Position numbers and translations under genes: made by a program. From the NCBI GenBank assembly GCA_015063325.1, contig SVUK01000002.1, forward strand, positions 1 through 39,358: a DNA stretch of 39,358 bases, given 5' to 3'. A model generated the notes under the pieces. It did not search any database. It was given only the letters and a program-made list of their open reading frames with translations, and was not told the origin of the DNA. Numbering within the stretch: position 1 is the first letter of the stretch; every line of letters starts with the position of its first letter. Positions 23,252 to 38,248 of the stretch are shown one piece after another. This DNA comes from Oscillospiraceae bacterium (GTDB taxonomy: Bacteria > Bacillota > Clostridia > Oscillospirales > CAG-272).

Positions 23252-23350
23252 AAGATTGAGAATCTCCGTTCTCTGAGAATTGTAATCAATGTGCAAACAA
23301 TACACCAGCGTATACAAATTTTATTATATCATGTAAACAAAGAAAACAAG

Positions 23351-24744: not shown

Positions 24745-25839
24745 ATGAAGGAAACGCTGAAAAAATATGCAAAACGATATTTTATCGACGCTATGGGTGC
24801 CATGGCATTAGGGCTTTTTGCCTCGCTTTTGATCGGCACTATCTTCAAAGCGCTCGGAATGATTCCCATTCCGAAAGTGAGCGAATTTTTGACCGAACTC
24901 GGCTCCTACGGCGCCAAAATCGCCGGGCCGGCAATGGCAGTTGCCATTGCTTACGCTTTAAAAGCACATCCGCTCGTCATTTTTTCCACCGTTTTGGTCG
25001 GCTATATGGCAAATGAAAAAGGCGGTGCAGGAGGACCGCTCGCAGTTTTGATTATCGCCATTGCCGCGAGCGAAATCGGAATGTTGGTTTCAAAAAAGAC
25101 GAAAATTGACATTTTGGTAACACCTTTCGTAACAATTTTGGTTGGCGGACTTCTGAGCGTTTTGATCGCGCCGCCGATTGGAGTTGCGGCAAGCTGGGTC
25201 GGCTCGTTTATCGGATGGGCAACGCTTCAGCAACCTTTCCTGATGGGATTGATCGTATCCGTAGTTGTCGGCATAGCCCTGACACTCCCTATCAGCTCCG
25301 CGGCGATTTGCGCTGCCATTGGACTTTCGGGAATGGCGGTTGTGGGCGGTGTTGCAGCTCTTGCGCCGAATAATCCCGAAGGTCTTGCACTTGCTGGCGG
25401 TGCGGCAATTGCCGGCTGTTGCGCCCAAATGGTCGGTTTTGCAGTGATGAGTTTTAAGGAAAACAAATGGGGCGGATTGATCTCGCAAGGAATCGGCACC
25501 AGTATGTTGCAAATGCCGAATATCGTGCGTAACCCACGCATTTGGATTCCCACCATTGTTGCGTCGGCAATTACAGGTCCGCTTTCCACCTGCGTTTTCG
25601 GGCTGAAAATGTACGGTGCCGCCATCAATTCCGGTATGGGAACCTGCGGATTCCTCGGTCCGATCGGTATGATCCTCGGTTGGTTTGGCGGCGTTTATCC
25701 CGAACAAATAACCGCGCTGGATTGGGTAGGGCTATTTCTGATTTGTCTGATTCTTCCTGCCGTCATTTCCCTTGCTTTGAGCGAACTGCTCTACAAAGTT
25801 AAGTGGATCAAACCGGGAGATTTGACACTGCAAGATTAA
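24745..25839 (+). CDS. PTS EIIC-like integral membrane protein
   Basis: 364 residues, with about ten hydrophobic segments rich in Gly and Ala. It matches the stand-alone PTS_EIIC_2-type family: FIDAMGAMALGLFASLLIGTI at the N-terminus, GPAMAVAIAYALKAHPLV, VGYMANEKGGAGGPLAV, LTLPISSAAICAAIGLSG, GCCAQMVGFAVMSFKENK and MYGAAINSGMGTCGFLGP. No IIA or IIB gene is nearby. The substrate is unknown, and a non-PTS transport or regulatory role is possible. GGAGG precedes the ATG. It has its own promoter and ends just before the tRNA-Arg remnant. Confidence 0.85.
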   Translation: MKETLKKYAKRYFIDAMGAMALGLFASLLIGTIFKALGMIPIPKVSEFLTELGSYGAKIAGPAMAVAIAYALKAHPLVIFSTVLVGYMANEKGGAGGPLAVLIIAIAASEIGMLVSKKTKIDILVTPFVTILVGGLLSVLIAPPIGVAASWVGSFIGWATLQQPFLMGLIVSVVVGIALTLPISSAAICAAIGLSGMAVVGGVAALAPNNPEGLALAGGAAIAGCCAQMVGFAVMSFKENKWGGLISQGIGTSMLQMPNIVRNPRIWIPTIVASAITGPLSTCVFGLKMYGAAINSGMGTCGFLGPIGMILGWFGGVYPEQITALDWVGLFLICLILPAVISLALSELLYKVKWIKPGDLTLQD

Positions 25840-25847
25840 AAAAACAA

Positions 25848-25876
25848 GCGGTAAGGAGCAATTCCTTACCGCTTTT
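25848..25876. terminator. Bidirectional terminator shared by the PTS-like gene and the tRNA-Arg
   Basis: GCGGTAAGGA (25848-25857), loop GCAAT, TCCTTACCGC (25863-25872), with TTTT on the plus side and a T-rich TTGTTTTTTT run on the minus side. A close copy lies at 35737-35764 next to the other tRNA half. Confidence 0.88.
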
Positions 25877-25920
25877 GGCGTTCCCGAGGCGATTCGAACG
25901 CCCGACCTACCGCTTAGGAG
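25876..25920 (-). other. 3' half of tRNA-Arg(CCU): left attachment site
   Basis: Read on the minus strand, this 45-nt piece gives loop CTCCTAA (anticodon CCU), 3' anticodon strand GCGGT, variable AGGTC, T-arm GGGCG-TTCGAAT-CGCCT, acceptor strand CGGGAAC, discriminator G and encoded CCA. The bases beyond 25920 cannot pair with GCGGT, so the 5' half is missing. It is the displaced 3' end left by integration into the tRNA. It shares the core CGCTTAGGAG (25911-25920) with the second half at 35764-35808. Confidence 0.85.
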
Positions 25921-25963
25921 TTATGACGGAAAATCGAAATATCGTTTTTATCATAAAAACTGT

Positions 25964-26039
25964 GAAAAATCTTTTGTTTTGTGCGTTTTATGAGAGCAAA
26001 AATGAGAAATCTTTTGCGCTTTTTCGAAGATTTTTCATT
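25964..26039. repeat. Direct and inverted copies of a GAAAAATCTTTTG-like motif at the left end of the element
   Basis: GAAAAATCTTTTG (25964-25976) and AATGAGAAATCTTTTGCG (26001-26018) are direct copies, and CGAAGATTTTTCATT (26025-26039) is an inverted copy of the latter. The last two can also form a hairpin that would terminate the minus-strand regulator gene. Arm-type integrase sites are an alternative reading. Confidence 0.55.
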
Positions 26040-26090
26040 TTGCAAAATAGGTTTTATATCTTTTTTATACTGATTTTATACCAAAGGAGA

Positions 26091-26759
26091 TTATTTATTA
26101 ATAGAAACAAGCAACTTAAAACGGTTTTTCTTTACCTTTATTAGCCCATCGTTTTGCATTTTCCCGAGTTCTTTTGAAAGCGCGGTGCGTTCGACATTCA
26201 GATAATCGGCAAGCTGCTGGCGGTCAAAAGGAATATCAAAATCGGTTTTCTTTTTTTGCAAAGCAAGCGCATTGAGGTAGGACATGACCCTCCCGCGGAT
26301 CGTTTTCGGCGAGGTGTGGAAACTCCTTCCCGAAAGATGCAAATTCTTATTGGTTGATATAGCAAGCAAATTGATCGTCAGTTTGTTTTTCCAACCCGCC
26401 GGTTTTTCGCGCAAAAAATTCAGTAATCCGATTTTCAGGAACAGGATTCGGCAGTTTTCGTTGGCTGTGACGTCTACAAGCATTGGTTCATTTTGCAAAA
26501 GCGCATAGGTTTCGGCGAAATACTGACCCTTCCCGATGTGACTGAGGATCGTGCGGTTCCCCCAAATATCGTTGCTTTCAATCGTAACGCTTCCTTCTAA
26601 CACCATACACATTCTGTCCGTCGTATCCCCTGCGTGGAGAATGACGGAATCTTTTTGATAGGATTTTTCCGTTGCGCAAAGTTCTTGCAGTGCGGTGGCG
26701 ATTTCTTCCTCTCCCATGCCGCGAAATATCGCGGCGTTTTTGATTTCTTCTGCTTTCAT
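26091..26759 (-). CDS. Crp/Fnr-family transcriptional regulator
   Basis: 222 residues. An N-terminal cyclic-nucleotide-binding-like beta-barrel (about 10-125, with ILHAGDTTDRMCMVLEGSVTI and FAETYALLQNEPMLVDVTA) is followed by a winged HTH at the end (FDRQQLADYLNVERTALSKE, then GLIKVKKNRFKLL). The four-cysteine cluster that FNR uses to sense oxygen is absent; only three scattered cysteines are present. A haem-, NO- or redox-type ligand is therefore more likely. The start at 26759 has GAGG upstream and is divergent from the dicluster-protein gene; a perfect operator lies between them. Confidence 0.88.
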   Translation of the reverse strand: MKAEEIKNAAIFRGMGEEEIATALQELCATEKSYQKDSVILHAGDTTDRMCMVLEGSVTIESNDIWGNRTILSHIGKGQYFAETYALLQNEPMLVDVTANENCRILFLKIGLLNFLREKPAGWKNKLTINLLAISTNKNLHLSGRSFHTSPKTIRGRVMSYLNALALQKKKTDFDIPFDRQQLADYLNVERTALSKELGKMQNDGLIKVKKNRFKLLVSINK

Positions 26760-26783
26760 AAAAACCTCAAAAAATTTTTCAAA

Positions 26784-26801
26784 ATGTGGTTCTAACCACA
26801 T
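26784..26801. promoter_or_regulatory. Perfect Crp/Fnr-type operator
   Basis: ATGTGGTTCTAACCACAT is an exact palindrome with 8-bp arms and a 2-bp centre. It is centred at 26792.5, i.e. -41.5 from the start predicted from the -10 at 26822-26827, which is the class II activation position. It lies 25 bp upstream of the regulator's own ATG on the other strand, so autoregulation is also possible. Confidence 0.82.
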
Positions 26802-26821
26802 ACTTTCAATTGAAATTGTAC

Positions 26822-26827
26822 TATAAT
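26822..26827 (+). promoter_or_regulatory. -10 element of the redox cargo operon
   Basis: TATAAT at 26822-26827 has no recognisable -35 at the right distance; the operator at 26784-26801 occupies that place. This is typical of an activator-dependent promoter. Confidence 0.75.
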
Positions 26828-26858
26828 CAAGCCGGAAAGTCAAGAGGAGGAAACAAAA

Positions 26859-27575
26859 ATGATTCGAAAAATTATCAAAATTGACAAAGAAAAATGTACT
26901 GGTTGCGGTTTATGTTCCGAAGCCTGCCACGAAGGCGCGATTGAAATGGTAGACGGAAAGGCAACGCTGACGCGCGAGGATTTCTGCGACGGATTTGGCG
27001 ATTGCCTTCCGGCTTGCCCCGCCGACGCGATCAGCTTTGAAGAGCGCGAAGCGCCCGAATATGACGAAAGTGCGGTTAAAAAAGCAAAGGAGAATAAAAA
27101 AATGGAAGAAGTTAAACATGAACATCACCACGAAGGCGGCTGCCCGGGATCGAGAATGAGACAGTTTGAACACAAAGACGAAGAAGTTCCGGTGCAGACC
27201 GGGAAGCCCGTTTCGCGCCTTGCACAGTGGCCGTGTCAGATCAAACTGGTTCCGCCGACCGCCCCGTTCTTTAACGGCGCGAAACTATTGATCGCGGCAG
27301 ATTGTACGGCTTATGCCTACGCAAGTATGCACGAGGATTTTATGCGCGGCAAGGTGACGATCATCGGCTGCCCGAAACTCGACGCGGTGGATTACAGCGA
27401 AAAATTGACCGCGATCCTGCAAAACAACGATATTAAGAGCGTGACCATCGTCCGAATGGAAGTGCCCTGTTGCGGTGGACTGCAAAGAGCGGCAGAAATT
27501 GCGTTGCAAAACAGTGGTAAATTCATTCCGTGGCAGGTTGTGACGATCTCTTGCGACGGCAAAATTCTTGATTGA
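26859..27575 (+). CDS. 4Fe-4S dicluster protein of the redox operon
   Basis: 238 residues. A ferredoxin-like N-terminus (1-65) has CTGCGLCSEAC followed by a second, looser set CDGFGDCLPACPADA. A His-rich link (HEHHHEGGCPGSRMRQ) leads to a C-terminal domain with WPCQIKLVPPTAPFFNGAKL, ADCTAYAYA, GCPKLDAVDY and VPCCGGLQRAA, whose conserved cysteines could hold a further cofactor. Likely a cytoplasmic electron-transfer or sensing protein. AGGAGG precedes the ATG. First gene under the operator at 26784-26801. Confidence 0.85.
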   Translation: MIRKIIKIDKEKCTGCGLCSEACHEGAIEMVDGKATLTREDFCDGFGDCLPACPADAISFEEREAPEYDESAVKKAKENKKMEEVKHEHHHEGGCPGSRMRQFEHKDEEVPVQTGKPVSRLAQWPCQIKLVPPTAPFFNGAKLLIAADCTAYAYASMHEDFMRGKVTIIGCPKLDAVDYSEKLTAILQNNDIKSVTIVRMEVPCCGGLQRAAEIALQNSGKFIPWQVVTISCDGKILD

Positions 27576-27587
27576 AGGAGAAAGAAT

Positions 27588-28271
27588 ATGAGCTACATGG
27601 ACTGGAAAGATAAAACGAGTGAATTCAAAAAAATTGATGTCCGCGGGATTCAAGGCAACTTTTTCGCCGGATTGAAAGGTCAGGCAATGAAATTGAACGC
27701 AGGCGAAGGGTTGGAAGTGGTACAAAGTTTTGATCCGATTCCGCTTTATGAAGTGATGGAAGAGCTTGGTTTTGAGCATTACACCGAGAAAAAAGGAAAT
27801 GCGGAATACCACGCATATTTCTACCGTGCCGTGGTAAAACAGGAGGAAAAAGATATTCCGATGCGTCCGGCGGCGCTGACGAATATGCCTCTTGTCGATG
27901 AGAAACTCGGCAACATCGCCGTTAACTTCTGGGATTTGACCTGGAATGATGAAAACCGCTATCTTCCGTATGAAACGAGATTGCTGCTGTCTCTCACCAA
28001 TGCCGTCGGCGCGGGACGGATGCGTCAAGCGACGAGAGAACTTGTAAAGGCATATATCCACGGGCTTGACAGCAAGGCGTTCGATGATGTGTTTGAACTT
28101 CTTGCTTGGAATCAGGGCATCGGCTATTTTAGTTCCGAGATCGGTCCTTCTACCCTGTTTGCGGCATACAAAACGATCAAAAACATGGAAAAGCAAGGCA
28201 AAGAGCGCGGAGAGATTTGCGAGGCGCTGAAAGAAAAATTCGGGGAAAAGAACCCAGATGTAAAGGTGTGA
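27588..28271 (+). CDS. DUF2249-domain protein with C-terminal helical domain
   Basis: 227 residues. Residues about 10-80 (KKIDVRGIQGNFFAGLKGQA, GEGLEVVQSFDPIPLYEVME) match the TusA-like DUF2249 fold. The C-terminal 120 residues are helical (LPYETRLLLSLTNAVGAGRM, RQATRELVKAYIHGL, FELLAWNQGIGYFSSEIGPS) and recall carboxymuconolactone-decarboxylase-like bundles, but the CxxC of that family is absent. DUF2249 proteins are often found with nitrogen-oxide or iron-sulfur stress genes. AAGGAG precedes the start. Biochemical role not known. Confidence 0.75.
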   Translation: MSYMDWKDKTSEFKKIDVRGIQGNFFAGLKGQAMKLNAGEGLEVVQSFDPIPLYEVMEELGFEHYTEKKGNAEYHAYFYRAVVKQEEKDIPMRPAALTNMPLVDEKLGNIAVNFWDLTWNDENRYLPYETRLLLSLTNAVGAGRMRQATRELVKAYIHGLDSKAFDDVFELLAWNQGIGYFSSEIGPSTLFAAYKTIKNMEKQGKERGEICEALKEKFGEKNPDVKV

Positions 28272-28276
28272 GCGAT

Positions 28277-28497
28277 ATGGAAATCACAATAGAAACAAAA
28301 CTGTCCGATTTGTTGGCTGTCTATCCTTGGCTGAAAGAAGAATTGCAAAGGTCAATCCTAAATTCAAAATGCTGAATACCCCGGTGGGCAAAATAATGAT
28401 CGGCAAAGCGACGATTGCTGAAATGAGTAAAAAATCCTGTATGGATGAAAACTTGTTGATGGCGGAATTGCAACGGCTGATCAACGAGAGAGCATAA
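28277..28497 (+). pseudogene. DUF1858 protein gene, frameshifted
   Basis: From ATG 28277 the frame reads MEITIETKLSDLLAVYPWLK and then stops after about 32 codons. The next frame continues VNPKFKMLNTPVGKIM and IAEMSKKSCMDENLLMAELQ to TAA at 28497. The two parts join into one DUF1858 domain of about 73 residues if one base is restored in the ELxKVNP turn near 28346-28352. The remains of the coding frame are clean, so the break is recent, or a sequence error. DUF1858 domains often accompany DUF2249 and hemerythrin-like proteins. Confidence 0.8.
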
Positions 28498-28506
28498 GGT
28501 GGCAGA

Positions 28507-29163
28507 ATGAAAGAAAAGATCGGAGAGGTCTTCTCCATTGCAAAAGAGAATCCGCCGGTAACCGGCTGTACGATCTCCAAAGAAGTCCATGGCGGCGAGA
28601 ACTACATCATCTATTTCTCGCTTGCAAAGAATACGGACATCAGCGCGGAGATTTACCCCTACCACAAACTGACCATCGTTGCAGACGGTAGTTTAGAGGT
28701 GTACGGGGCAAACAGTTCCGGTAAAAAAGCAAATACCAGCGAAAGCATCATAACACCGACAGATACCCCGGTAGGTATGAGAACCGAGGAAGGAACAGTT
28801 TACACAGAAATATCAATCAGGAGGAACGATACAATGAATGAAGCAATCAAACCAGGTGAGGTTTTCAAATTGGCAGATCTTGTCCCCTATGTGGACGGAA
28901 AGATTATCAATATGGATGTGGCACACAACGACAAAATGAAATTTGTTGTGATGGCGTTTGATGAAGGAACCGGGCTTTCCGAGCACGCCGCGCCCGGCGA
29001 AGCATTGATCTTCGCGCTTGACGGTGCAGGTGTTATCGGTTATAATGGAATTGAGCATCCAATCAAGGCGGGAGAAAATTTCCATTTTGCAAAAGCCGGA
29101 CTTCACAGTATCAAAGCAACCGAAAAATTCAAAATGGCCCTTCTGCTGACATTGGAACAATAA
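28507..29163 (+). CDS. Tandem cupin protein with possible internal start
   Basis: 218 residues made of two cupin-like halves. The N-terminal half (1-108) has few metal ligands, with LAKNTDISAEIYPYHKLTIV and a long loop. The C-terminal half (110-218) is a clear single cupin: GTGLSEHAAPGEALIFALDG and KAGENFHFAKAGLHSIKA, with histidines in both motifs. At 28819-28824 a perfect AGGAGG lies 9 nt before an in-frame ATG at 28834, so a 109-residue single cupin may be made as well. Between the DUF1858 and dehydrogenase genes of the cargo operon. Confidence 0.82.
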   Translation: MKEKIGEVFSIAKENPPVTGCTISKEVHGGENYIIYFSLAKNTDISAEIYPYHKLTIVADGSLEVYGANSSGKKANTSESIITPTDTPVGMRTEEGTVYTEISIRRNDTMNEAIKPGEVFKLADLVPYVDGKIINMDVAHNDKMKFVVMAFDEGTGLSEHAAPGEALIFALDGAGVIGYNGIEHPIKAGENFHFAKAGLHSIKATEKFKMALLLTLEQ

Positions 29164-29184
29164 ACCTTCAAAGGAGTTGCGGGC

Positions 29185-30222
29185 ATGATCAAAGTAGCAT
29201 TTTATGATACAAAACCGTATGACAAGCCTTCTTTTGAACATTACGGCGTGATGCACGGCTTACAGTTCCGGTTTTTGGAAGCAAAACTGAACGAGGATAC
29301 CGTGGCTTTGGCGGAAGGGTGCGACGCTGTTTGCGTATTCGTCAACGACAGCGTAACCGAGACCGTCATCGACCGCTTGTATGAATATGGCGTCAAGTTG
29401 ATCGCCCTGCGCTCCGCGGGCTACAACAACGTTGACGTTCGGGCGGCTTTCGGCAAGATTCACGTCGTTCATGTTCCAGCATACTCTCCTTACGCCGTCG
29501 CGGAACACGCCATGGCGCTACTGCTGACCTCGGTTCGCAGGATCCACAAGGCGTACAACCGAACGAGGGATTTCAATTTTTCGCTCAGCGGCTTGACCGG
29601 GTTTGATCTGCACGGCAAGACGGTTGGCGTGATCGGCACCGGGAAGATTGGGCGCATCTTCATTGACATCTGCCGGGGCTTCGGAATGAAGGTGATCGCC
29701 TACGACCCATATCCTGTGCTTGACGGCGGTATTCAATACGTCGCGCTCGATGATCTGTTCGCGCAAAGCGACGTGATATCGCTCCATTGCCCGCTGACCG
29801 ACAGCACGTCCCACACGATCAACGCCGACGCGATTGCAAAAATGAGAAAAGGCGTCGTGATTGTGAACACCTCGCGCGGTGCGCTTATCGACGCGGAAGC
29901 GCTACTTTCCGGCATCAAAGCGCGGAAAATCGGCGCGGCGTGTCTGGATGTTTACGAAGAGGAAGCCGATATATTCTTCGAGGATCGCTCAGGTCATATT
30001 ATGAACGACGACCTTCTCGCGCGGCTAATCTCAATGCCCAACGTCATTGTCACATCTCATCAGGCATTCCTTACGGAAGAGGCACTCTCAAACATCGCCG
30101 AAACGACAGTGAACAATATTCTGTCGTATTTCGACAACGGTGGAATTTGTGAAAATGAACTGTGCTATCGCTGCGGTAACATAGAACATTGTAAAAAAAC
30201 AAGAAAGCAAAAATGCTTTTAA
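29185..30222 (+). CDS. D-2-hydroxyacid dehydrogenase (D-lactate dehydrogenase-like)
   Basis: 345 residues. The NAD loop is TVGVIGTGKIGRIFIDIC (about 146-163). The catalytic set is present: Arg in NTSRGALIDAEAL, Glu in LDVYEEEADIFFED, His in TSHQAFLTEEAL. YNNVDVRAA and YAVAEHAMALLL are typical of D-LDH. The C-terminal tail has four cysteines (CYRCGNIEHCKKTRKQKC), which may bind metal or be a subgroup feature. It could reduce pyruvate to D-lactate as an electron sink. AAAGGAG precedes the ATG. The next gene encodes a ferredoxin. Confidence 0.9.
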   Translation: MIKVAFYDTKPYDKPSFEHYGVMHGLQFRFLEAKLNEDTVALAEGCDAVCVFVNDSVTETVIDRLYEYGVKLIALRSAGYNNVDVRAAFGKIHVVHVPAYSPYAVAEHAMALLLTSVRRIHKAYNRTRDFNFSLSGLTGFDLHGKTVGVIGTGKIGRIFIDICRGFGMKVIAYDPYPVLDGGIQYVALDDLFAQSDVISLHCPLTDSTSHTINADAIAKMRKGVVIVNTSRGALIDAEALLSGIKARKIGAACLDVYEEEADIFFEDRSGHIMNDDLLARLISMPNVIVTSHQAFLTEEALSNIAETTVNNILSYFDNGGICENELCYRCGNIEHCKKTRKQKCF

Positions 30223-30234
30223 GGAGGATCAATT

Positions 30235-30516
30235 ATGAAGTATTATGTAAATGAAGATTGCATCGGTTGCGGGCTGTGTGCCGGGACCTGCCCGGAAGTT
30301 TTCTCTATGAGCGATGATGGTGTTGCCATAGCCATTGAAGCCGAAGTCCCGGAAGAAGCTCTTGAAAGTGCCGCGGAAGCAATGGATAATTGCCCGGTCG
30401 GTGCGATTGAGGAACGCGCCGGGGACAACGCAGACGGTAATGATTGTACAAAAGTCGAATCCTGCGAAAAAAAACGGATTATATCGAACTGCAAAAACTG
30501 CTGGTCGGCGCTCTGA
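30235..30516 (+). CDS. Ferredoxin
   Basis: 93 residues as read, but the recognisable ferredoxin is about 62: CIGCGLCAGTCPEVF at 9-23 and a final CPVGAI with the fourth cysteine, so one [4Fe-4S] cluster. The remaining tail runs across an A8 tract at 30468-30475 and overlaps the next gene by 73 bp in another frame. A -1 shift in the A8 tract would fuse the ferredoxin to the Hcp-like protein. AAGGAGG precedes the ATG. Likely electron carrier for the neighbouring redox enzymes. Confidence 0.88.
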   Translation: MKYYVNEDCIGCGLCAGTCPEVFSMSDDGVAIAIEAEVPEEALESAAEAMDNCPVGAIEERAGDNADGNDCTKVESCEKKRIISNCKNCWSAL

Positions 30517-30986
30517 TTGGTCTTGCCCGCACAACAGACGGCAATACACAGCCGACGGAAGAGACATACAAACTGCTTATCAAAGGGCTGTATTATTCTG
30601 TGAAAAACGTGCCTTTCAATGAGGCAGATATCCGGAATCTGATCGATGAGATTCACGCCGAAAAGGATATGCTTGTCCCGCGCTGTTCGGAGTGCGCCTC
30701 TCCGTGCGGCAGAAACGACGATTTCGATATGAACAAACTGCAAAACGCGGATCCGGAGATTCGCAGTCTGAAAGTCCTGCTGCTTTTCGGGATTCGTGGG
30801 CTAGCAACGCTCATATATAATGCCGGCATCAACGGGGTTTCCGTATGTGTTGCGGATGAACTCTTTGCTAAAGCACTCTTCGCGATCGGCGAAGACTGGG
30901 GAACAAAAGAACTGCAACCGGTTATCTTTGAATTTGCGGAAGTCAGTTCCTCGTGCGTGAAAGCGATCGAGACGGCGACCGAATAA
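30444..30986 (+). CDS. Hcp-like helical-domain protein (hydroxylamine reductase N-terminal type)
   Basis: 180 residues as read from TTG 30444, which has no ribosome site. LQKLLVGALIGLARTTDGN, CSECASPCGRNDDFDM and LLLFGIRGLATLIYNAGI resemble the alpha-helical N-terminal part of hybrid-cluster proteins; the large Hcp catalytic domains are absent. True translation probably begins elsewhere: either by -1 slippage from the ferredoxin at the A8 tract, or as one fused gene broken by a base loss. It ends the cargo operon. A role with NO or hydroxylamine is an inference from the family resemblance. Confidence 0.65.
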   Translation: MYKSRILRKKTDYIELQKLLVGALIGLARTTDGNTQPTEETYKLLIKGLYYSVKNVPFNEADIRNLIDEIHAEKDMLVPRCSECASPCGRNDDFDMNKLQNADPEIRSLKVLLLFGIRGLATLIYNAGINGVSVCVADELFAKALFAIGEDWGTKELQPVIFEFAEVSSSCVKAIETATE

Positions 30987-31083
30987 GCGAGAGAACATCG
31001 GAATAATTGTACGGCAATACTAATAACAAACACACTTACCGCAGAGAGAAATCCCTGCGGTATTATTATTTAAACAAGCCCAC

Positions 31084-31338
31084 TTGACAAATGTAAACTT
31101 TTCGATATTCTCGCTGCCTACCTATTGAGGGGGCTTTTATTTTTTGCCAAAAATGGTTGTAAAAATGGCGTTTTCGCCGGCTACCTATTAGGGGGATATT
31201 TTTCTTGTAAGAAATATTTTCACGGTTTTGACCCCCAAAACGCCATTTTTTCGCCATTTATTATGGAGAGCAAAAAAATTTTTGATTTAGACCGCCACCT
31301 TTTGCCGCTTTTTTGCCCATTTAAGTAGAGGGGGATTT
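31084..31338. repeat. Repeat-rich non-coding region, possible oriT or replication region
   Basis: No gene is seen between 30987 and 31372. CTACCTATTGAGGGGG (31118-31133) and CTACCTATTAGGGGG (31181-31195) are direct repeats, with AGTAGAGGGGG near 31325 as a weaker third. AAAAATGGCGTTTT (31161-31174) is exactly inverted at 31237-31250. A possible promoter TTGACA/TATTCT lies at 31084-31111. Placement just upstream of the mobility genes fits a transfer or replication origin, without proof. Confidence 0.55.
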
Positions 31339-31372
31339 TAACAGCACCAAATCATTCAGAAAGGAGACACCA

Positions 31373-31408
31373 ATGAACCGCCCGAGAGATCATCCCAAAT
31401 GCCTTTGA
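31373..31408 (+). CDS. Possible 11-residue leader peptide
   Basis: ATG at 31373 with a strong AAAGGAGA site reads MNRPRDHPKCL and stops. The stop overlaps a small hairpin CTTTGAT-TGC-ATCAAAG. It lies 40 bp ahead of the DUF6291-like gene and could be a leader peptide or a truncated relic. Confidence 0.35.
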   Translation: MNRPRDHPKCL

Positions 31409-31448
31409 TTGCATCAAAGAAACAAGAAAAATCAAGAAAGGAGAAATT

Positions 31449-32126
31449 ATGGAACAGCCGCAAGCAATCAAACAATTCCCGTTCTACGATTTCTATGCGC
31501 AGATACTTTGCACCTTGAAGGACGAAGAAGCGGGACGACTGACCAAACGAATGTGCGCGTATATGTTCTCGTTCGAGACACTTACAGACATTGAGGATAA
31601 CAAGGAACGCTTCTATTGGGGCAACCTTGTGGATGTCTTGGAAGAGAGTAAGGATGCACTTCAAAATGGCAAAGCACCATCCGGACTCAACCGCAGAATG
31701 AAGCACTTTGCGTTTCAGGAGAACTTTTACGACGCGCTCTGTCTCTTGGATGAAAGGCAAGGCGGGCAGTATGTCAAAGCAATCTGCGATTATATGTTCG
31801 AGGACAAAACACCGACGCTCAAACCGCCGGTGGACTCGTTCTTTGCGCTCGCCAAACGAAAACTGGATCTGTCAAAGATTCGGAAACGGAACGGTCAGCG
31901 CGGCGGTACTGCCAAGCACAAACGAGCGCCCGAACCGCCGCTTGACATGGACGGATTCTTGATCCGACAGCCACAGGTAAAGAACGATATTTACCGTTCA
32001 AGTATGCACCTGACGGAAGGCGTCAACTGGTCGCTGCTCAACGATCGACTGCCGCAATCTGTGTATCGGGACAGTACAAGTTTGTACCAAATCCTGATCC
32101 ATTACCGCGACATCGTCGGTTCATAA
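31449..32126 (+). CDS. Duplicated DUF6291-like protein of the mobile element
   Basis: 225 residues. Two related units are visible: FPFYDFYAQILCTLKDEEAG with LTKRMCAYMF (about 9-40), and FAFQENFYDALCLLDERQGG with YVKAICDYMFED (about 87-120). Each matches the short DUF6291 helical unit found in phage and mobile-element proteins. A basic stretch KRKLDLSKIRKRNGQRGGT follows. The C-terminal 60 residues are not recognised. AAGGAGAAATT precedes the ATG. A role in replication or accessory to mobilization is inferred from position only. Confidence 0.7.
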   Translation: MEQPQAIKQFPFYDFYAQILCTLKDEEAGRLTKRMCAYMFSFETLTDIEDNKERFYWGNLVDVLEESKDALQNGKAPSGLNRRMKHFAFQENFYDALCLLDERQGGQYVKAICDYMFEDKTPTLKPPVDSFFALAKRKLDLSKIRKRNGQRGGTAKHKRAPEPPLDMDGFLIRQPQVKNDIYRSSMHLTEGVNWSLLNDRLPQSVYRDSTSLYQILIHYRDIVGS

Positions 32127-32177
32127 CGACAAGCAAATTGCAAGCAAACGAGACAAAAAAGGAAGCAGGCTAAGGTT

Positions 32178-33626
32178 TTGCAGTTTTACCGCAAAACGCC
32201 TTTCGGAATCAGGATACCCGACTTCCTCTTTTCGTCCACAAAAGAAAGGAGAAAACAGATCGAAAAACAAAGCACGCCCGTCATCTTTGATATTGCTTAC
32301 ACGCCCTACAAACTGCCGAAGAACGCGACGCAAAAAGAATTGGAAACCCACAGGAAAAACCGCGCCTTCTTCGATCTGTCCGGCAAGGACAATCTCTACA
32401 AATATATGACCACCGAAGGCAAGGTTTACGGCAACGAAGCCGCAAAGTTCACGATGCTCCAATATTTGCAGAAGAGCACCGGCGTCTTCAATCAAAACGG
32501 TATGCTCTCAAAGGAAGAAGTGAAGGCAATCAAGAAACGAGCCCAAGACGGAGAGAAAAACCTCTGGCACGGATTTATCTCTTTTAACAAAGAGGATTCC
32601 AAACTCATCGACACACCCGAAAAGTGTATTGATCTCGTCAAGAAAACTTTCAACCAATTCTTCCGCGACGCCGGCTTTGATCCCGAAAATATGGATCTTC
32701 TCTGCGCTCTTCATCTTGACAGACCCGAGCATCTGCACATTCACTACCTGTTTTTCGAGAAGGAACCCAAAATCAAGAACAAACGAGCAAAGGGGTATCT
32801 CTATCGGAAGAAGGGCAAGATTTCCTTCGAGGCAATCGAAAAGATGACCGAACGATTGAACGCGTTTACTTTGAACGATGAACTTGAGGAGAAGAGGTGG
32901 GCGGTACACGATGCTCTATTAAGGAAGAGCCCTGCCTATTCGACAGCCGTGATGAATGACATTGCTCGCGGTATGCTCAAAGACCTTGCCGATAAACTGC
33001 CGCGGGACAAGCCGCTTTGGTATGCCAGTAAAGAGATGATCCCTTACAGGAGTGATATTGATTACGCCGCTCGATGGTTACTCTCTTCCAATCCCGAAGC
33101 CTATGACGCCGATCGAGCCTTCCAGGAAGAACTGAGGCAAAAGAAGATTCGTCTGCAAGACAAAATGGGAGCGTGGTATCGGGAGCGAGTCGATAAGGAA
33201 TTACATATCGTTGAGAACATGGAAGGCTACACCGAGCTCGGCGATGGGATGAAAAATCTTTACACCATCGAAGCCATCGAATGGGACTACAAACGGAGGC
33301 TTGGAAATATCGTTCTCCGGCAGGTTCGGAGGATTCAAAACGAGCGATACGAGCCGAAATATCGTCCCTACAAGGTCAACGACAAAGCCTTGAAACGGAA
33401 TCTTACTATCTCCGCGCGGAAGATCCAACATTTGAATGAAGGATTCTTTGCATCTCTCGGAGAACTCTTCACGCCGCACATTTCCACCTGCCACAACCGC
33501 TTACAAGAAATTGAAAAAGAGATTGAATATGAAAAGAAGCAGGAAGAGGCAAAGGAAAGACAGACGGAAGAAGAGAGAATCCGTCAAGAGGCAATCCGAC
33601 GCGCCAAATATAGTTGGAGCAAATAA
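32178..33626 (+). CDS. MobL-type relaxase
   Basis: 482 residues. The histidine triad of the nickase lies in LHLDRPEHLHIHYLFFEKEP (about 180-199), and KDNLYKYMTT in the first 80 residues fits the N-terminal relaxase fold of the MobL/MobP group. The second half is a long, charged, helical region ending in a coiled coil (KEIEYEKKQEEAKERQTEEE). It should nick oriT and pilot the strand during conjugative mobilization. The start is a TTG at 32178 with AGGAAGCAGG upstream; the exact start is uncertain. 51 bp after the DUF6291-like gene. Confidence 0.82.
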   Translation: MQFYRKTPFGIRIPDFLFSSTKERRKQIEKQSTPVIFDIAYTPYKLPKNATQKELETHRKNRAFFDLSGKDNLYKYMTTEGKVYGNEAAKFTMLQYLQKSTGVFNQNGMLSKEEVKAIKKRAQDGEKNLWHGFISFNKEDSKLIDTPEKCIDLVKKTFNQFFRDAGFDPENMDLLCALHLDRPEHLHIHYLFFEKEPKIKNKRAKGYLYRKKGKISFEAIEKMTERLNAFTLNDELEEKRWAVHDALLRKSPAYSTAVMNDIARGMLKDLADKLPRDKPLWYASKEMIPYRSDIDYAARWLLSSNPEAYDADRAFQEELRQKKIRLQDKMGAWYRERVDKELHIVENMEGYTELGDGMKNLYTIEAIEWDYKRRLGNIVLRQVRRIQNERYEPKYRPYKVNDKALKRNLTISARKIQHLNEGFFASLGELFTPHISTCHNRLQEIEKEIEYEKKQEEAKERQTEEERIRQEAIRRAKYSWSK

Positions 33627-33758
33627 CACCAAGGCGTCTTTCTACAGTTGCAATCTGTTCACGCCCAAAACAGAACAGAAGCAAAAGGCCCAGCGAGCCA
33701 AGTCGCTATGATATGAAAAAACAATCGCATATCTCTATGCTCATTTTTCAATTTCAGC

Positions 33759-33787
33759 TTGACAAACCTTTTCAGGTGTGGTAAAAT
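33759..33787 (+). promoter_or_regulatory. Promoter of the regulator-xis-int genes
   Basis: TTGACA (33759-33764) and TAAAAT (33782-33787) are 17 bp apart. The predicted start is at about 33794, the first base of the operator palindrome. Confidence 0.82.
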
Positions 33788-33793
33788 ATATGT

Positions 33794-33809
33794 GTCGTAT
33801 AAATACGAC
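33794..33809. promoter_or_regulatory. Operator-like palindrome at the transcription start
   Basis: GTCGTATAAATACGAC is a perfect inverted repeat (7-bp arms, 2-bp centre) covering about +1 to +16. The first gene of the transcript encodes a ribbon-helix-helix-like protein, so autorepression is likely. Confidence 0.72.
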
Positions 33810-33834
33810 CGCGCCATCACAGGAGGTTGAGGAA

Positions 33835-34044
33835 ATGAAAGAGCAAAAAGTATCAAAGGACAAGAGATATGAGGATAGACACAAGGAAGAACGAAAAGCA
33901 AAATGTATGATCTGGGGAACAAGTGTCGAAAGACCGCTCGGTGAGGAAATCAATGAATTTCTCAAGCTGACCGGTTTCACCAAAGTCGAACTTATTAAAG
34001 CCGGCTATCAAACTCTTGTAGAGAAATCCTCAAAGAACAAATAA
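33835..34044 (+). CDS. Ribbon-helix-helix-like DNA-binding protein
   Basis: 69 residues. A basic N-terminus is followed by CMIWGTSVERPLGEEINEFL and KLTGFTKVELIKAGYQTLVE, a strand-helix-helix pattern as in Arc/CopG proteins. The start at 33835 is set by AGGAGG 8 nt upstream; an upstream ATG at 33778 lies before the promoter's -10 and is rejected. Its probable operator is at 33794-33809. It may set the balance between integration and excision of the element. Confidence 0.75.
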   Translation: MKEQKVSKDKRYEDRHKEERKAKCMIWGTSVERPLGEEINEFLKLTGFTKVELIKAGYQTLVEKSSKNK

Positions 34045-34116
34045 ACGCTATCGATTTTCCTTGTGGGAACGGGAAAACTAACCGGACTCCCCGCCGTCCA
34101 AGAAAAAGGAATATGA

Positions 34117-34305
34117 TTGTTAAGGAGTATTAAAAAAGCACACGAACTGATAAAAGCACAAGACCCGGAAACCGGGGTCACTCTCTACACGATCCGTCAT
34201 TGGTGTAAAGAGGGGAAAATCAAATATTTGACGGTAGGCAACAAGATTTTGATCGACGTTGAAAGTCTGATGGACTATATCTCAATGAAACCGCAGGTGA
34301 AATAA
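34117..34305 (+). CDS. xis: Excisionase-like HTH protein
   Basis: 62 residues from a TTG at 34117 with AAAAAGG upstream. A MerR-like HTH (TGVTLYTIRHWCKEGKIKYL) and a winged end (VGNKILIDVESLMDYI) match helix-turn-helix_17 excisionases. The stop overlaps the integrase start by one base (TAATG), so the two are coupled. The start codon is not certain. Confidence 0.75.
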   Translation: MLRSIKKAHELIKAQDPETGVTLYTIRHWCKEGKIKYLTVGNKILIDVESLMDYISMKPQVK

Positions 34306-35723
34306 TGGCATATTTTAAGATTGAAACAGATAAAAAAGGCAAACTGAAAGCGCGGATACAGGTCAGCGGCAAGGATGTTGAAACCGGAAAGGCGAAACTC
34401 TTTACCAAGAAGGTTTATAACGATGAGAACTTGACCGAAGCCAAGTTTCGCAAACAGGTGGAAAAGATTTCTCTTGCCTTTGAAGATGAAGTAGAAAGAG
34501 CCTATGCCGATCGGAAAACGCAGATTTGCAACAAAGTTCTGACATTTTCCGAACTTGCGGAAGAATGGGTGCAAACGATCAAAAACAACTTGTCTCATAA
34601 TTACTTTCTGCGGGCAACCGAGGTTGTCCAAAGATTTAACCGCTACTTGACTGAAAAGCATTTGGATCAAAAGCCGATTTCAGACATCACCGTTCGCGAC
34701 GTGCAACTGTACCTCAACTCGTTCTCTTCGGGATACACGAAGCAAATTCCGGTCGCAAGAATGAAAAAAGACTTCCCGCAGGAAGTCAATTTCAGGCAAC
34801 TTGCAAGAGACGGTATCATCAACCGTTGTGCATCTTACGGAATGCGCAGGAAAGGGAACAACATTGAAGAAACGACCGCAAGAAAAATCTGCGACGAGTA
34901 TAAACTCGACTTTGACGAGTATTTTGAAATTGCTTCGGCAAATCATCCGTATTCGCCCGAAACCATCAAGGGACAACGTCGGGTTTTGAGGACCTTGTTC
35001 AATGAAGCGGTGCGCTACGAATGGATCGTCAAGAATCCGGTTTGCGGAACGAAAATCGGAGCCGGAAGCAGTAACACGTCTCTTCGGGAGGTGCCTGAAA
35101 AGGAGGTTTTCTCTCTTGCGGAAGCGCAGGACTTTTTGAAAACGCTCGGCGCCATTCCGGATGATGAGATCTACAAGAGAATGCCTTTGGAGCTGATGCT
35201 TCTCACCGGCATTCGCCAAGGCGAACTATGCGGTCTGCATTGGTCTGACGTGGACTTTGAAAAAGGCTTACTGCATATTCGCAGAAGCCGGCAGGCGGCA
35301 AAGGGCTTTACCTACGAAAAAGATCCGAAGACAAAAACTTCGATCCGGGAAATCCCGATGCCAGAAATGTTGATCCGAGATTTGTGGAAGTATTACGACT
35401 GGTTTGCGGAAGCCGACAAGCGTTTTGCAGACCGGTTGGACGAGTACTATCTAGCGGTCAACGTCTATCGAATGCCAATCTATCCCCATACAGTCGGGCA
35501 TTGGCTGAAAACGTTTGAAGAGAAAAACGGATTTAAGCACGTGACCTGTCACGGACTGCGGCACACTTATTGCAGTCTCTTGCTTTCGCAGAACGTGCCG
35601 ATTCAGACGGTATCCAAGTACATGGGGCACAGTGATTCAACGATCACCCTAAAGGTGTACAGCCATTTCATTCCGGATACGCAGGATCGCGCATTGAGTG
35701 CATTGGAAAAGTTAGCGGTATAA
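34305..35723 (+). CDS. int: Tyrosine recombinase (integrase) of element 1
   Basis: 472 residues. An N-terminal arm/SAM-like region (to about 215) leads to the catalytic domain with Arg in LLTGIRQGELCGL, HGLRH (His-x-x-Arg), HSDSTI and the nucleophile Tyr in LKVYSHF. All catalytic residues are present. Its end is 41 bp from the tRNA-Arg half at 35764, the usual int-next-to-att layout. The middle includes an unusual insert (about 135-215) with a CASYGMRRKGNNIEE stretch. Confidence 0.93.
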   Translation: MAYFKIETDKKGKLKARIQVSGKDVETGKAKLFTKKVYNDENLTEAKFRKQVEKISLAFEDEVERAYADRKTQICNKVLTFSELAEEWVQTIKNNLSHNYFLRATEVVQRFNRYLTEKHLDQKPISDITVRDVQLYLNSFSSGYTKQIPVARMKKDFPQEVNFRQLARDGIINRCASYGMRRKGNNIEETTARKICDEYKLDFDEYFEIASANHPYSPETIKGQRRVLRTLFNEAVRYEWIVKNPVCGTKIGAGSSNTSLREVPEKEVFSLAEAQDFLKTLGAIPDDEIYKRMPLELMLLTGIRQGELCGLHWSDVDFEKGLLHIRRSRQAAKGFTYEKDPKTKTSIREIPMPEMLIRDLWKYYDWFAEADKRFADRLDEYYLAVNVYRMPIYPHTVGHWLKTFEEKNGFKHVTCHGLRHTYCSLLLSQNVPIQTVSKYMGHSDSTITLKVYSHFIPDTQDRALSALEKLAV

Positions 35724-35736
35724 CACAAAAAAGAAG

Positions 35737-35764
35737 GCGGCAGGGAGCAATCCTTGCCGCTTTT
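35737..35764. terminator. Bidirectional terminator of the integrase and the element-borne tRNA half
   Basis: GCGGCAGGGA (35737-35746), loop GCAA, TCCTTGCCGC (35751-35760) and TTTT. On the minus strand a CTTCTTTTTT tract follows. It is a close copy of the terminator at 25848-25876, so the element carries both a tRNA 3' half and its terminator. Confidence 0.85.
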
Positions 35765-35808
35765 GGCACCCACGATTGGATTCGAACCAACGGCCTATCG
35801 CTTAGGAG
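35764..35808 (-). other. 3' half of tRNA-Arg(CCU): right attachment site of element 1
   Basis: On the minus strand: loop CTCCTAA (CCU), GCGAT, variable AGGCC, T-arm GTTGG-TTCGAAT-CCAAT, acceptor CGTGGGT, G, CCA. Beyond 35808 the sequence (AGCCATCGG) cannot form the other strand of the anticodon stem. The T-arm and acceptor differ from the half at 25876-25920, as expected if this copy came with the element. Shared core CGCTTAGGAG at 35799-35808. Confidence 0.83.
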
Positions 35809-36110
35809 AGCCATCGGATAGCGTTAAACTGACGGTAAGTAAGTGCCAAAAACACCGTAATTACAAGGGCTTCGCCATCATTCGCTGTCAGACTTTGAAC
35901 ATCGAAAAACAGCTAAAATCAGGCTTGAACAGGGGTGTTTATTGGCTTCCGATTAGCAGTCTCCCCATAACACGGGTATTGATAAAAAGTTCGAATTCCA
36001 TCGTGGAACATCAAATAAGAACATATAGTGTTATCCCTGTCGCTGTAACTATTATACTCACCAATCCCTTTTTTTCAATGGATTATCCGAAGATTCATAG
36101 AAAAGATACA
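35809..36110. other. Non-coding left end of element 2
   Basis: About 300 bp between the att core and the integrase terminator. No gene is supported: an open frame here starts inside the antisense of the tRNA half. A GTTCGAATTCCATCGTGG stretch near 35988 resembles a tRNA T-arm and acceptor but does not fold as one. Integrase arm sites probably lie here. Confidence 0.55.
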
Positions 36111-36140
36111 AAGACGCCCTCGTTGCCGAGAGCGTCTTTT
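36111..36140 (-). terminator. Terminator of the element 2 integrase
   Basis: AAGACGC-C-CTC pairs with GAG-A-GCGTCTT across a 6-nt loop. It lies just past the integrase stop on its strand. Confidence 0.75.
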
Positions 36141-36147
36141 CGCTTTA

Positions 36148-37554
36148 TTATGTTGCAGTTTTTGATGTTGCTTGCTGTTGTAAGAAGAACTCTTGAAACG
36201 CTTTGCTCATCTCAGGGTTCGTAAGTACACCCATCAGCATTTCTTGCATGGACAGCACTCCTTGCGGCTGTTCTGCCGGAGGATCACCGGGCGTCTCGTC
36301 AGACGGGGATGGATTTCCGTAGAACTTTTCGTCAAACCTCTGAGCATTGATGGCTCTGTCTTCATCAAGGATATGAGAGTAAACATCTGCCACCATATCG
36401 GCTCTTGCGTGTCCTGAGTCGCCCTGAACAGACTTTATATCACCCTCGGTCCATTTGAGCTTATAGGTGATACTGGAGTGACGGATACTGTGGAACACCA
36501 CCGGGGGTAGGTCGTTTTCCTTAATCAGCTTGCTCAACGCACGGTTTATTACTTGCCCCTCCATCGGGCGTCCCGAAGCGTTTGCGAACAGCAGATTGTA
36601 GTCATGGTATTCGTCTCCAAGCAGCTCCTTGATCTCCTCAATTTCCTTGATCCTCTCCTGAACCATTATGGCAACAGTCTTCGGAAGATAAACCCGGCGC
36701 TTGCTGGTTTTCGTCTTAGGAGCTTTCAAAACAAGAACGGTGGTTCCAGAGACTGCGGTGCGAGGAAACGTGAAAAGAACATCCTTATTGTCGAGTTTTT
36801 CAAGAACATCTCTATTTACCCGTTGAAGTTCCTTGTCAATGAAGATCGAAGCTCTGCCTTCGGACACTGACTTTTCACTTACATCCACGCAGTCAAGAGT
36901 GATTCCCAGCATTTCCCCCATGCGGAGGGTGCAGGAGACAGCAAGGTTCAGAGCGAGCGATAGAATATCATCGTCACAGAGTTCCAACGCCTTGTGGAAG
37001 GTTTCGACATCCCAGATTTTCCTCTCTGCGTGTTCTTCCTTTGGGACTGTGGCGTTTACGACGGGGTTTCTTGCGACAAGTTCCCACTTAACCGCCTGAT
37101 TGAAAGCGCACCGAAGAATCTTATGGATTTCACGAACCGTGTGAGCCGTCAGATATTCGTTCTTGGGTCGCTTGTTATTCACCACCTTCGGTTTGACCCG
37201 AAGTAAGCTCTGATAGTATTTCTCCATCACACGGGGAGTAACTTCATCGAGCGACATATCTCCGATCAGCGGATCAATGTAGTTGAAAATCAATCCTCGC
37301 TTTGCCTCGTAGGTGGACATTGCCCATGTGTTCACGCCGTAAATGGACATATAATCTTCGAGTAGGTCGTGGATCGTTTTTGCGCTCGGAAGGATAAATG
37401 TTCCATTCTGCTGCTCAAACTCGACCTGTGCTTTTCTTTTCTTGGCGTCAGCATTGGTGGCGAAGGTTTCCCACTTCTGACGCTTCTTTCCGTTCTCATC
37501 GGTATATGTATAAACGACTGAGTAACGGTTCCTTCGTTTTACGATTGATGCCAT
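36148..37554 (-). CDS. int: Tyrosine recombinase (integrase) of element 2
   Basis: 468 residues. An AP2-like N-terminal DNA-binding region (KRRNRYSVVYTYTDENGKKR) is followed by a SAM-like domain (to about 170) and the catalytic domain: Arg in SCTLRMGEMLG, FHSIRHSSITY (His-x-x-Arg), SGHARADMV and the nucleophile in DVYSHI. A C-terminal Pro/Gln-rich tail of about 60 residues (PAEQPQGVLSMQEMLMGVL) is extra. It differs clearly from the integrase at 34305, so the two elements are independent. The start overlaps the upstream HTH gene as TAATG. Confidence 0.92.
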   Translation of the reverse strand: MASIVKRRNRYSVVYTYTDENGKKRQKWETFATNADAKKRKAQVEFEQQNGTFILPSAKTIHDLLEDYMSIYGVNTWAMSTYEAKRGLIFNYIDPLIGDMSLDEVTPRVMEKYYQSLLRVKPKVVNNKRPKNEYLTAHTVREIHKILRCAFNQAVKWELVARNPVVNATVPKEEHAERKIWDVETFHKALELCDDDILSLALNLAVSCTLRMGEMLGITLDCVDVSEKSVSEGRASIFIDKELQRVNRDVLEKLDNKDVLFTFPRTAVSGTTVLVLKAPKTKTSKRRVYLPKTVAIMVQERIKEIEEIKELLGDEYHDYNLLFANASGRPMEGQVINRALSKLIKENDLPPVVFHSIRHSSITYKLKWTEGDIKSVQGDSGHARADMVADVYSHILDEDRAINAQRFDEKFYGNPSPSDETPGDPPAEQPQGVLSMQEMLMGVLTNPEMSKAFQEFFLQQQATSKTAT

Positions 37555-37736
37555 TATGACTCCTCCTTTTCTCCGTCAAGCCAAGCGTCGAAGCTGGCCT
37601 TGACGATTCTGTACTTGCGGTCAAGTAAGACCGTTTTGAACTTCTTTTGATAGATCAGTTGGTAGACCGCTTGACGGCTGATTCCGAGAATGTTTTGGAC
37701 CTCGGCAACCGTGTAGCATTTCTTATTCTGATCCAA
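37554..37736 (-). CDS. xis: Excisionase-like HTH protein of element 2
   Basis: 60 residues. CYTVAEVQNILGISRQAVYQ with LIYQKKFKTVLLDRKYRI and FDAWLDGE is a helix-turn-helix_17 excisionase unit. The TTG at 37734-37736 is taken as start because GGGAGGG lies 6 nt upstream; the frame is open further upstream but the ATG at 37754 has no site. The stop shares bases with the integrase ATG (TAATG). Confidence 0.78.
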   Translation of the reverse strand: MDQNKKCYTVAEVQNILGISRQAVYQLIYQKKFKTVLLDRKYRIVKASFDAWLDGEKEES

Positions 37737-38136: not shown

Positions 38137-38177
38137 TTTTCGTTCCTCCTTCTGAGGCGGGGTAAGCCTCCGTTTTC

Positions 38178-38209
38178 CATATAGCCAAGCCTTTCAGCTT
38201 GGCTATATG
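38178..38209. promoter_or_regulatory. Perfect 13-bp hairpin between HTH genes
   Basis: CATATAGCCAAGC (38178-38190), a 6-nt loop and the exact complement (38197-38209). It lies between the 87-residue HTH gene and the double-HTH gene. There is no U-tract, so an attenuator, operator or processing site is more likely than a simple terminator. Confidence 0.6.
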
Positions 38210-38248
38210 ATACGGATTTCAAGGGAAACTGTTAATGATGCGATGGAC

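Follow-up and report, generated by a model that had tools for sequence, protein, structure and literature searches.

A probable nested pair of tRNA-replacing integrative elements in an Oscillospiraceae genome is one case of a widespread pattern in its order

tRNA islands and the tRNA-Arg(CCU) locus

Integrative elements that target transfer RNA (tRNA) genes are described, in the accessible parts of three reports, as leaving a target that is kept or restored from a fragment (PMC4383910, PMC8371274, PMC5704250). According to the available text on the Islander set, tRNA islands with an anticodon-loop crossover restore the target as a chimera through a fragment in attP, the attachment site of the element (PMC4383910). 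A review of integrative mobilizable elements (IMEs) states, in the portion available, that integration spares the target because one of the repeats includes one end of the gene (PMC5704250). The pTN3-like elements are reported, again in the accessible text, to use the 5' half of a tRNA gene as attB, the attachment site of the host (PMC8371274). Here we analyzed the whole of contig C12 (SVUK01000002.1; 39,358 bp, hereafter the window) from an Oscillospiraceae metagenome-assembled genome of 24 contigs and 1.68 Mb. We conclude that an integrative element in this window, element A, very probably destroyed the host tRNA-Arg(CCU) at its anticodon loop and brought a complete replacement, and that a second element, element B, did likewise to the tRNA of element A. 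This nested pair is one case of a pattern that is widespread in the order. The usual rule, as far as these partial sources tell, is that the element supplies a piece of the gene and a chimera is restored (PMC8371274, PMC4383910, PMC5704250), whereas here the gene appears to be destroyed and wholly replaced, and repeatedly so.

The original prediction, made from the letters of the window, had noticed two 45-nt tRNA-Arg(CCU) 3' halves with the same loop start and near-identical hairpins, and the sequence confirms them. The left one (L-half, 25876..25920, minus strand, read 25920->25876) is the displaced 3' half of the host gene, and the right one (R-half, 35764..35808, minus strand, read 35808->35764) is assigned below to the complete tRNA-Arg(CCU) of element A. 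Both start at CTCCTAAGCG (anticodon-loop position 32) and finish in CCA. The core is CTCCTAAGC in the L-half (25920-25912, minus strand, 9 bp, element A) and CTCCTAAG in the R-half (35808-35801, minus strand, 8 bp, element B). Each half adjoins a terminator-like hairpin with a T-run, at about 25846..25877 for the host half and about 35733..35764 for the element A tRNA, and the units of half and hairpin are 78% alike over 81 nt (E 1e-10), with no other second match in the assembly. Five genus mates have an intact tRNA-Arg(CCU) whose 3' half matches the L-half at 45/45 positions. Neither in the window nor near any of the 42 tRNA-like places in the assembly did ARAGORN call an intact tRNA-Arg(CCU). 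Elsewhere in this genome (G000), positions 2230-2293 of contig C23 gave a weak tRNA-model match (31 bits) and no ARAGORN call.

Where is the 5' part of the host gene? The right end of C23, beside tRNA-Val(CAC), carries three tRNA-Arg 5' halves in series. The first is an orphan half of host type (60826-60857), followed by CTCCTAAGC and then by non-tRNA sequence. The second orphan (61005-61037), 180 bp on from the host half, is followed by CTCCTAAG and again by non-tRNA sequence. The third (61121-61152), 115 bp beyond the second, continues as tRNA up to the contig end at 61173. The second orphan is 33 nt long and has a mismatched D-stem, as expected of a split gene in decay.

We scored the pairing between halves by counting each Watson-Crick pair as 1 and each G-U pair as 0.5, with a maximum of 7 in the acceptor stem and 5 in the anticodon stem. 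The host 5' half and the L-half reach 6.5/7 and 5/5, and together they differ from the intact tRNA-Arg(CCU) of the five genus mates at 1/77 positions. The second orphan and the R-half also reach 6.5/7 and 5/5. The crossed combinations score lower, at 4/7 and 4/5 for the host 5' half with the R-half and at 4/7 and 4.5/5 for the second orphan with the L-half. Because the second 5' half on C23 fits the R-half and the host half does not, we take the R-half to be the 3' part of the tRNA of element A. We had also considered that the host 5' half might have mutated so as to match the R-half, an idea dropped because the host 5' half lies unchanged further left on C23. Three claims of the original prediction thus hold: the target is tRNA-Arg(CCU), the crossover lies at the anticodon loop, and the left half, which is identical to that of genus mates and pairs with the host 5' half, is the displaced one.

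The original prediction went on to propose that a 3' half borne by the element completes the host 5' half. This would be a classical island, in which the element brings only a 3' half that joins the host 5' half as a chimeric tRNA, and the second contact would be simple tandem accretion. Such an arrangement is the textbook one for tRNA islands in the accessible parts of two reports (PMC4383910, PMC8371274), and the available Islander text presents anticodon-loop crossovers as common among them (PMC4383910). Our locus also has the integrase of such an island and, in the L-half, a displaced fragment at the far end. However, the sequence that follows the host 5' half on C23 is not tRNA, this half pairs poorly with the R-half as scored above, and a separate second 5' half fits the R-half instead. 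In place of an attP fragment that restores a chimera there are a core of 8-9 bp and a separate complete tRNA. A classical island also leaves unaccounted for the 74 orphan 5' halves in 51 arrays described below, and we judge it very unlikely. The predicted circular junction (35808-25921) is likewise not the one to expect, as the other end of element A is on C23.

We propose instead that element A inserted in the anticodon loop of tRNA-Arg(CCU) with an identity between attP and target of just 8-9 bp (CTCCTAAGC, seven loop bases plus two). Because attP shares so little with the target, recombination would part the two halves of the host gene and restore neither. On the inner side of a left att arm of about 140 bp, and before the integrase, element A would carry a complete tRNA-Arg(CCU) that has a terminator of its own. 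This replacement presents the same loop, and for that reason element B, an element that resembles an integrative and conjugative element (ICE) with its integrase on the right, could enter it, leave the second orphan and bring a further tRNA. Over repeated rounds, left ends would pile up into a short row of orphan 5' halves closed by one working tRNA, and the 3' halves would be pushed apart by the bodies of the elements in last-in-first-out order. We infer that the integrase acts at the loop and that the cell expresses the carried tRNA in working form. Element A would measure about 10.07 kb, of which 180 bp lie on C23 and 9,888 bp in the window; its left end follows the host 5' half on C23 and its right end is at window position 25921.

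The same layout occurs in other bacteria. In the genome-contig collection, relatives of the element A integrase (int_A) were found at one locus, L103, on a contig of an uncultured Clostridia bacterium; the viral contig collection yielded no relative, and among 98 genomes only int_A itself was recovered at 1e-60. The L103 integrase is 77% identical to int_A and is followed by a terminator, a complete tRNA-Arg(CCU), 126 bp, an orphan host 5' half and chromosomal genes. A similar hairpin to that of the element A tRNA lies there between integrase and tRNA, and L103 appears to be what element A would have looked like prior to the arrival of element B.

A whole element can be followed in Monoglobus pectinilyticus (NZ_OY725736.1). 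Its left end has an orphan 5' half (418674-418704), an 84-nt spacer and a complete, different tRNA-Arg(CCU), and the partner 3' half lies at 468937, past the integrase of a 50-kb ICE. That 3' half scores 6.5 and 5 (acceptor and anticodon stem) with the orphan and 3 and 3 with the element's own tRNA. By its sequence, 418674-468981 is one complete element. Between its ends are ParA/ParB, MobC, a relaxase, VirD4, VirB4, Tet(O/32/O), tet(40), PemK, helix-turn-helix (HTH) genes and the integrase. We note that a 50-kb ICE bearing Tet(O/32/O) and tet(40) therein employs the tRNA-replacement scheme (NZ_OY725736.1 418674-468981; L244, L246).

What is present of element B is in all likelihood the right end of a Monoglobus-type ICE, because its integrase (int_B), its PemK gene and its HTH neighbours match those of the Monoglobus ICE. 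The int_B protein is 72% identical over 413 aa to the right-end integrase of that ICE and 64% identical to a right-end integrase in genome G389; the viral contig collection yielded no relative of it. In element B as in the Monoglobus ICE, the integrase sits on the right by a displaced 3' half, and element B ends on that side with a block of PemK, HTH genes and integrase that adjoins the split tRNA half. The Monoglobus ICE, with VirD4 (CD1115) and VirB4 (CD1110), is known whole, whereas element B is known from its right end only: the sequence right of 35808 continues past the end of C12, and the rest of the element is off the contig. Insertion of element B in reverse, with a tRNA beside int_B, was rejected, since 35809-36147 contains no tRNA and the elements of Monoglobus and G389 also have the integrase on the right.

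Equivalent left ends are present in Subdoligranulum variabile (OY725843.1) and in an IMG/VR contig (L239). A degenerate left-end pattern matched two viral contigs, of which L239 is genuine and L238 is without any tRNA. The record MT837101.1 has a displaced half and no 5' side, and it does not enter the counts below.

Arrays of orphan 5' halves across the order

How common is this arrangement? A 5'-half pattern matched 230 of 394 genomes of the order. We parsed 56 stretches, mostly picked for at least two pattern matches, and grouped halves within 450 bp, a limit that leaves G370 outside, with two tRNAs 576 bp apart. This gave 51 arrays, of which 46 are in genomes of the 394 set, one is in a further genus mate (G020), and the others are L103, L239, Subdoligranulum and Monoglobus. 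The proportion of 46/394 is a lower bound, as tandem matches in G427, G360 and G114 were not among the parsed stretches. The last member of the array is a complete tRNA in 46 of the 51, is cut by a contig end in four and is neither in one (G095). All 74 members that come before the last are incomplete. Certain spacings recur, namely 81, 92-94, 101-105, 113-115, 123-125 and 214-279 bp. Across 398 genomes sampled from the phylum, the pattern, which misses diverged halves, gave tandem matches in just two, G000 and G048, each a member of this order.

As a control, none of the 36 other parsable tRNAs of the genome under study has an orphan half upstream (best match 0.64), and an upstream match of at least 0.68 was found for 41 of 47 complete tRNA-Arg(CCU) genes tested. 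Of the six genes below 0.68, three belong to arrays whose halves have diverged and three lie at loci that have no array.

We compared spacers between genomes. Where spacers from different genomes are at least 90% alike (49 pairs), the downstream 5' halves are 0.959 identical and the upstream halves 0.811, and where spacers are dissimilar (0.5-0.6, 1478 pairs) the two values are 0.776 and 0.778; all of these are means without a p-value, taken over non-independent pairs. Near-identical spacers predict the downstream 5' half and not the upstream one, which suggests that the tRNA moves together with the element end.

Could the arrays have arisen without any element? Local tandem duplication of tRNA-Arg(CCU) with decay of the upstream copies, mobile elements being incidental, could produce the arrays of identical units, as could recombination. 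Such units are repeated four times at 93 bp in G278 and twice at 81 bp in G044. Duplication does not explain why the same spacer and downstream tRNA follow different upstream 5' halves across genera, why the upstream copies are cut at one loop base, or why the partner 3' halves lie from kilobases to 99 kb off, beyond an integrase-bearing body. We therefore regard it as extremely unlikely. Under the replacement scheme, the identical repeats of G278, G044 and G389 would fit recurrent insertion of one element whose body was later lost, and the four near-identical units of G278 suggest that the same element inserted and was lost repeatedly. The G278 stretch (L153/L236) holds five 5' halves at 93-bp steps, and its sole displaced half, 53 kb off, matches none of them.

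Spacers of 81 and 93 bp (of the L132, L098 and L148 type) share a T-arm-like GTTCGAATCC motif 12-14 nt past the core. It looks as if an old element-borne 3' half had decayed with a complete tRNA present behind it.

Nine of 12 displaced 3' halves pair with an upstream orphan 5' half of the same contig or genome under a strict filter, against 0.95 expected from the 87 distinct 5' halves. A T-arm filter left out G389@99431 and G194@23937, both of which do pair with an orphan, and G112@10735 was left out as a false parse. Right-end sequences also go with particular left ends: ...TCGGGTCTA accompanies the 124-bp spacer type of G378, G389 and G166, and ...TACGCCGTA accompanies the 93-bp type of G227 and G194. 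In L097 (G049), a displaced 3' half (8077-8121) lies 3.4 kb after a complete tRNA-Arg(CCU) (4567-4641) that is not preceded by an orphan 5' half.

The order of insertion can be read most directly in G389, a single contig of 2.55 Mb. Its first orphan pairs with a half 99 kb away (99,431), by the integrase that is 64% identical to int_B. Its second orphan pairs with a half 33 kb away (33,255), and the inner integrase adjoins the sole complete tRNA. On this sequence evidence, G389 holds two insertions nested in one contig, in the order that the replacement model demands. It is scarcely credible that the replacement tRNA is host DNA caught by chance, or that the C23 end comes from another strain, as a one-off or an assembly artefact: the assembly of 24 contigs does break exactly at the tRNA, but a like layout is present in L103, Subdoligranulum OY725843.1, Monoglobus NZ_OY725736.1, the IMG/VR contig and 46 genomes of the order, and G389 has it within one contig.

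Probable replacement at a single tRNA

Several observations weigh against replacement by nested elements. C23 would be joined to C12 through element B, and the assembly breaks at the tRNA. ARAGORN calls a tRNA in all four combinations of halves, wrong ones included, and so does not discriminate between them; the pairing cut-offs were chosen after the first cases had been inspected. The displaced halves of G278, G093 and G049 have no partner in their own arrays, and no displaced half turned up in nine of 18 stretches that had been lengthened, perhaps owing to long element bodies, to loss or to decay. In G095, a near-identical spacer leads to a different 5' half. The flanking phosphotransferase system (PTS) gene of the window is not beside tRNA-Arg(CCU) in G028, G006 or G021. 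G+C content is alike in element and flank (0.46-0.47) and gives no boundary signal. Searches for a circular form in phage and plasmid collections turned up nothing but integrated or linear records. Finally, the 63 spacers scanned show no overall enrichment of promoter-like sites, with best scores that average 7.65 as against 7.54 in shuffled sequences. A score of at least 10 was reached in three of the 63, for example in Monoglobus, with a promoter-like TTGACA-17-TAAAAT. Because the spacers are not enriched in such sites, transcription of the carried tRNA behind short spacers likely relies on read-through from the host promoter and processing.

How do these elements compare with described systems? 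They resemble Islander-type islands, in the accessible account of these, in their tyrosine integrase, tRNA target, loop crossover, far-end displaced 3' fragment and tandem insertion (PMC4383910). Such islands restore the target from the attP fragment, whereas here the host is left with an orphan 5' half, and a complete tRNA of foreign origin takes over (PMC4383910, in the part available). Element A is like the IMEs of the review in having a relaxase without transfer apparatus, an excisionase with its integrase, a length of 10 kb, a site-specific tRNA target and accretion; IMEs leave their target undisrupted in the accessible text, unlike element A (PMC5704250). With the pTN3-like elements the likeness would be that the recombinant tRNA is expressed from the element side and not from the host promoter; in the available portion of that report they restore a chimera from a fragment, whereas here a whole gene is carried (PMC8371274). 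Tycheposons also combine a tyrosine recombinase with a tRNA gene at the element end, and the accessible part of their description contains no case of an orphan 5' half backed by a complete replacement tRNA (PMC10872708). Full-text searches of the open-access literature, which largely excludes subscription journals, brought up no account of complete replacement tRNAs or 5'-half arrays (also PMC3146451, PMC11476347); an earlier description may exist elsewhere.

Why replace a whole tRNA gene? Beyond the single locus, we lean slightly towards a broader picture in which tRNA-Arg(CCU) serves as a relay site for a guild of elements whose att arms are unlike (IMEs, ICEs and a provirus contig), each of which destroys the current copy and installs its own. 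The sole CCU-decoding tRNA of the cell would then be that of the newest element. A core confined to the loop would free an element from matching the stems and so widen its host range, the newest element would be costly to lose, and the array would be an ordered record that includes lost elements. Whole replacement would explain how one site can serve hosts with differing tRNA stems. It also predicts that standard island finders overlook such elements; judging from the published filters of Islander, in the accessible text, a search for fragments against an intact tRNA would probably miss them (PMC4383910). The short 5'-half array could be read as an order of insertions, including those whose bodies are gone. 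That a minor arginine tRNA of the cell becomes dependent on the newest mobile element is now testable.

Genes of the two elements and their flank

The original prediction of a mobilizable element between the two halves is borne out by gene content. Int_A (34305..35723, plus strand) matches the Pfam family Phage_integrase at 1.9e-24, which confirms its predicted label. Upstream is an excisionase-like protein (34117..34305, plus) with an HTH_17 match in Pfam (1.9e-6); this confirms it as excisionase-like, although its NCBIfam excisionase match is under the curated cut-off. It is 86% identical over 58 aa to a protein of L103 that also adjoins the integrase. The predicted relaxase (32178..33626, plus, start codon uncertain) is MobL/MobP2-like, since tblastn aligns it with genes annotated as mobL or mobP2 (23-30% identity, E 1e-5 to 9e-7), and neither Pfam nor NCBIfam gave it a match. 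The small protein at 33778..34044 (plus), which had been called a ribbon-helix-helix regulator, has no family match in Pfam or NCBIfam, and we leave its type unconfirmed. No family of a conjugation apparatus was matched in Pfam or NCBIfam among the element A proteins scanned. With a relaxase-like gene and no transfer apparatus, element A has the make-up of an IME.

The right end of element A (25921..26090, minus) contains two GTATAAAA repeats, at 26063-26070 and 26074-26081 (minus). This octamer occurs four times in the window, two of them in this right end, and three times in the C23 stretch, two of them in the left end of element A. Pairs, at both ends, of an octamer that is rare in both contigs are what integrase arm sites would look like, and we regard them as putative sites of this kind.

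The cargo assigned by Pfam begins with a Crp/Fnr-type regulator (26091..26843, minus) and continues on the plus strand with a 4Fe-4S protein (26859..27575), a DUF2249 protein (27588..28271), a cupin (28507..29163), a D-2-hydroxyacid dehydrogenase (29185..30222) and a small ferredoxin (30235..30516). A weak match to the Prismane family (30444..30986, plus; PF03063, 0.00092) is under the curated cut-off, and a DUF6291 protein follows (31449..32126, plus; 2.1e-15). The dehydrogenase is 72% identical to a paralogue on contig C21 of the same genome, 88% to a protein of G011 and 83% to one of G039, from another family. At the five loci compared, none of the others among the 15 window proteins compared was found near this dehydrogenase.

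The stretch of element B between split point and int_B (35809..36147) leads to int_B itself, a tyrosine integrase (36148..37554, minus; Pfam 1e-14). Beyond it are three HTH_17 excisionase-like genes (37554..38512, minus; Pfam), with similar genes beside the integrase in the Monoglobus ICE, and a PemK/MazF-like gene (38526..39071, minus; Pfam 9.7e-25), 45% identical to the gene at the equivalent place there.

The chromosomal flank of the L-half is a PTS EIIC-like gene (24745..25839, plus; PF13303, 1.5e-83) with homologues of 66-81% DNA identity in genus mates. The original prediction expected relatives to have an empty site, with this gene next to an intact tRNA-Arg(CCU). The intact tRNA is indeed present in the five genus mates, whereas the PTS gene is not downstream of it in the relatives read. 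We therefore rejected the PTS gene as a fixed neighbour of tRNA-Arg(CCU), and because it is not next to this tRNA in those relatives, the host region around the tRNA has been rearranged. In G028 and G006 the gene beside the PTS gene is what we take, from its sequence, to be alaS; its counterpart in this assembly is on contig C17. In G031 the PTS gene is on the tRNA-Val side: at L087 (6531-8937), the pair of tRNA-Val and tRNA-Arg is inverted relative to its flanks by comparison with C23, with the PTS gene by tRNA-Val. Further left in the window (21306-23317), two adjoining open reading frames on the minus strand look, from their translations alone, like genes of a surface-polysaccharide locus for a sugar transferase and an aminotransferase.

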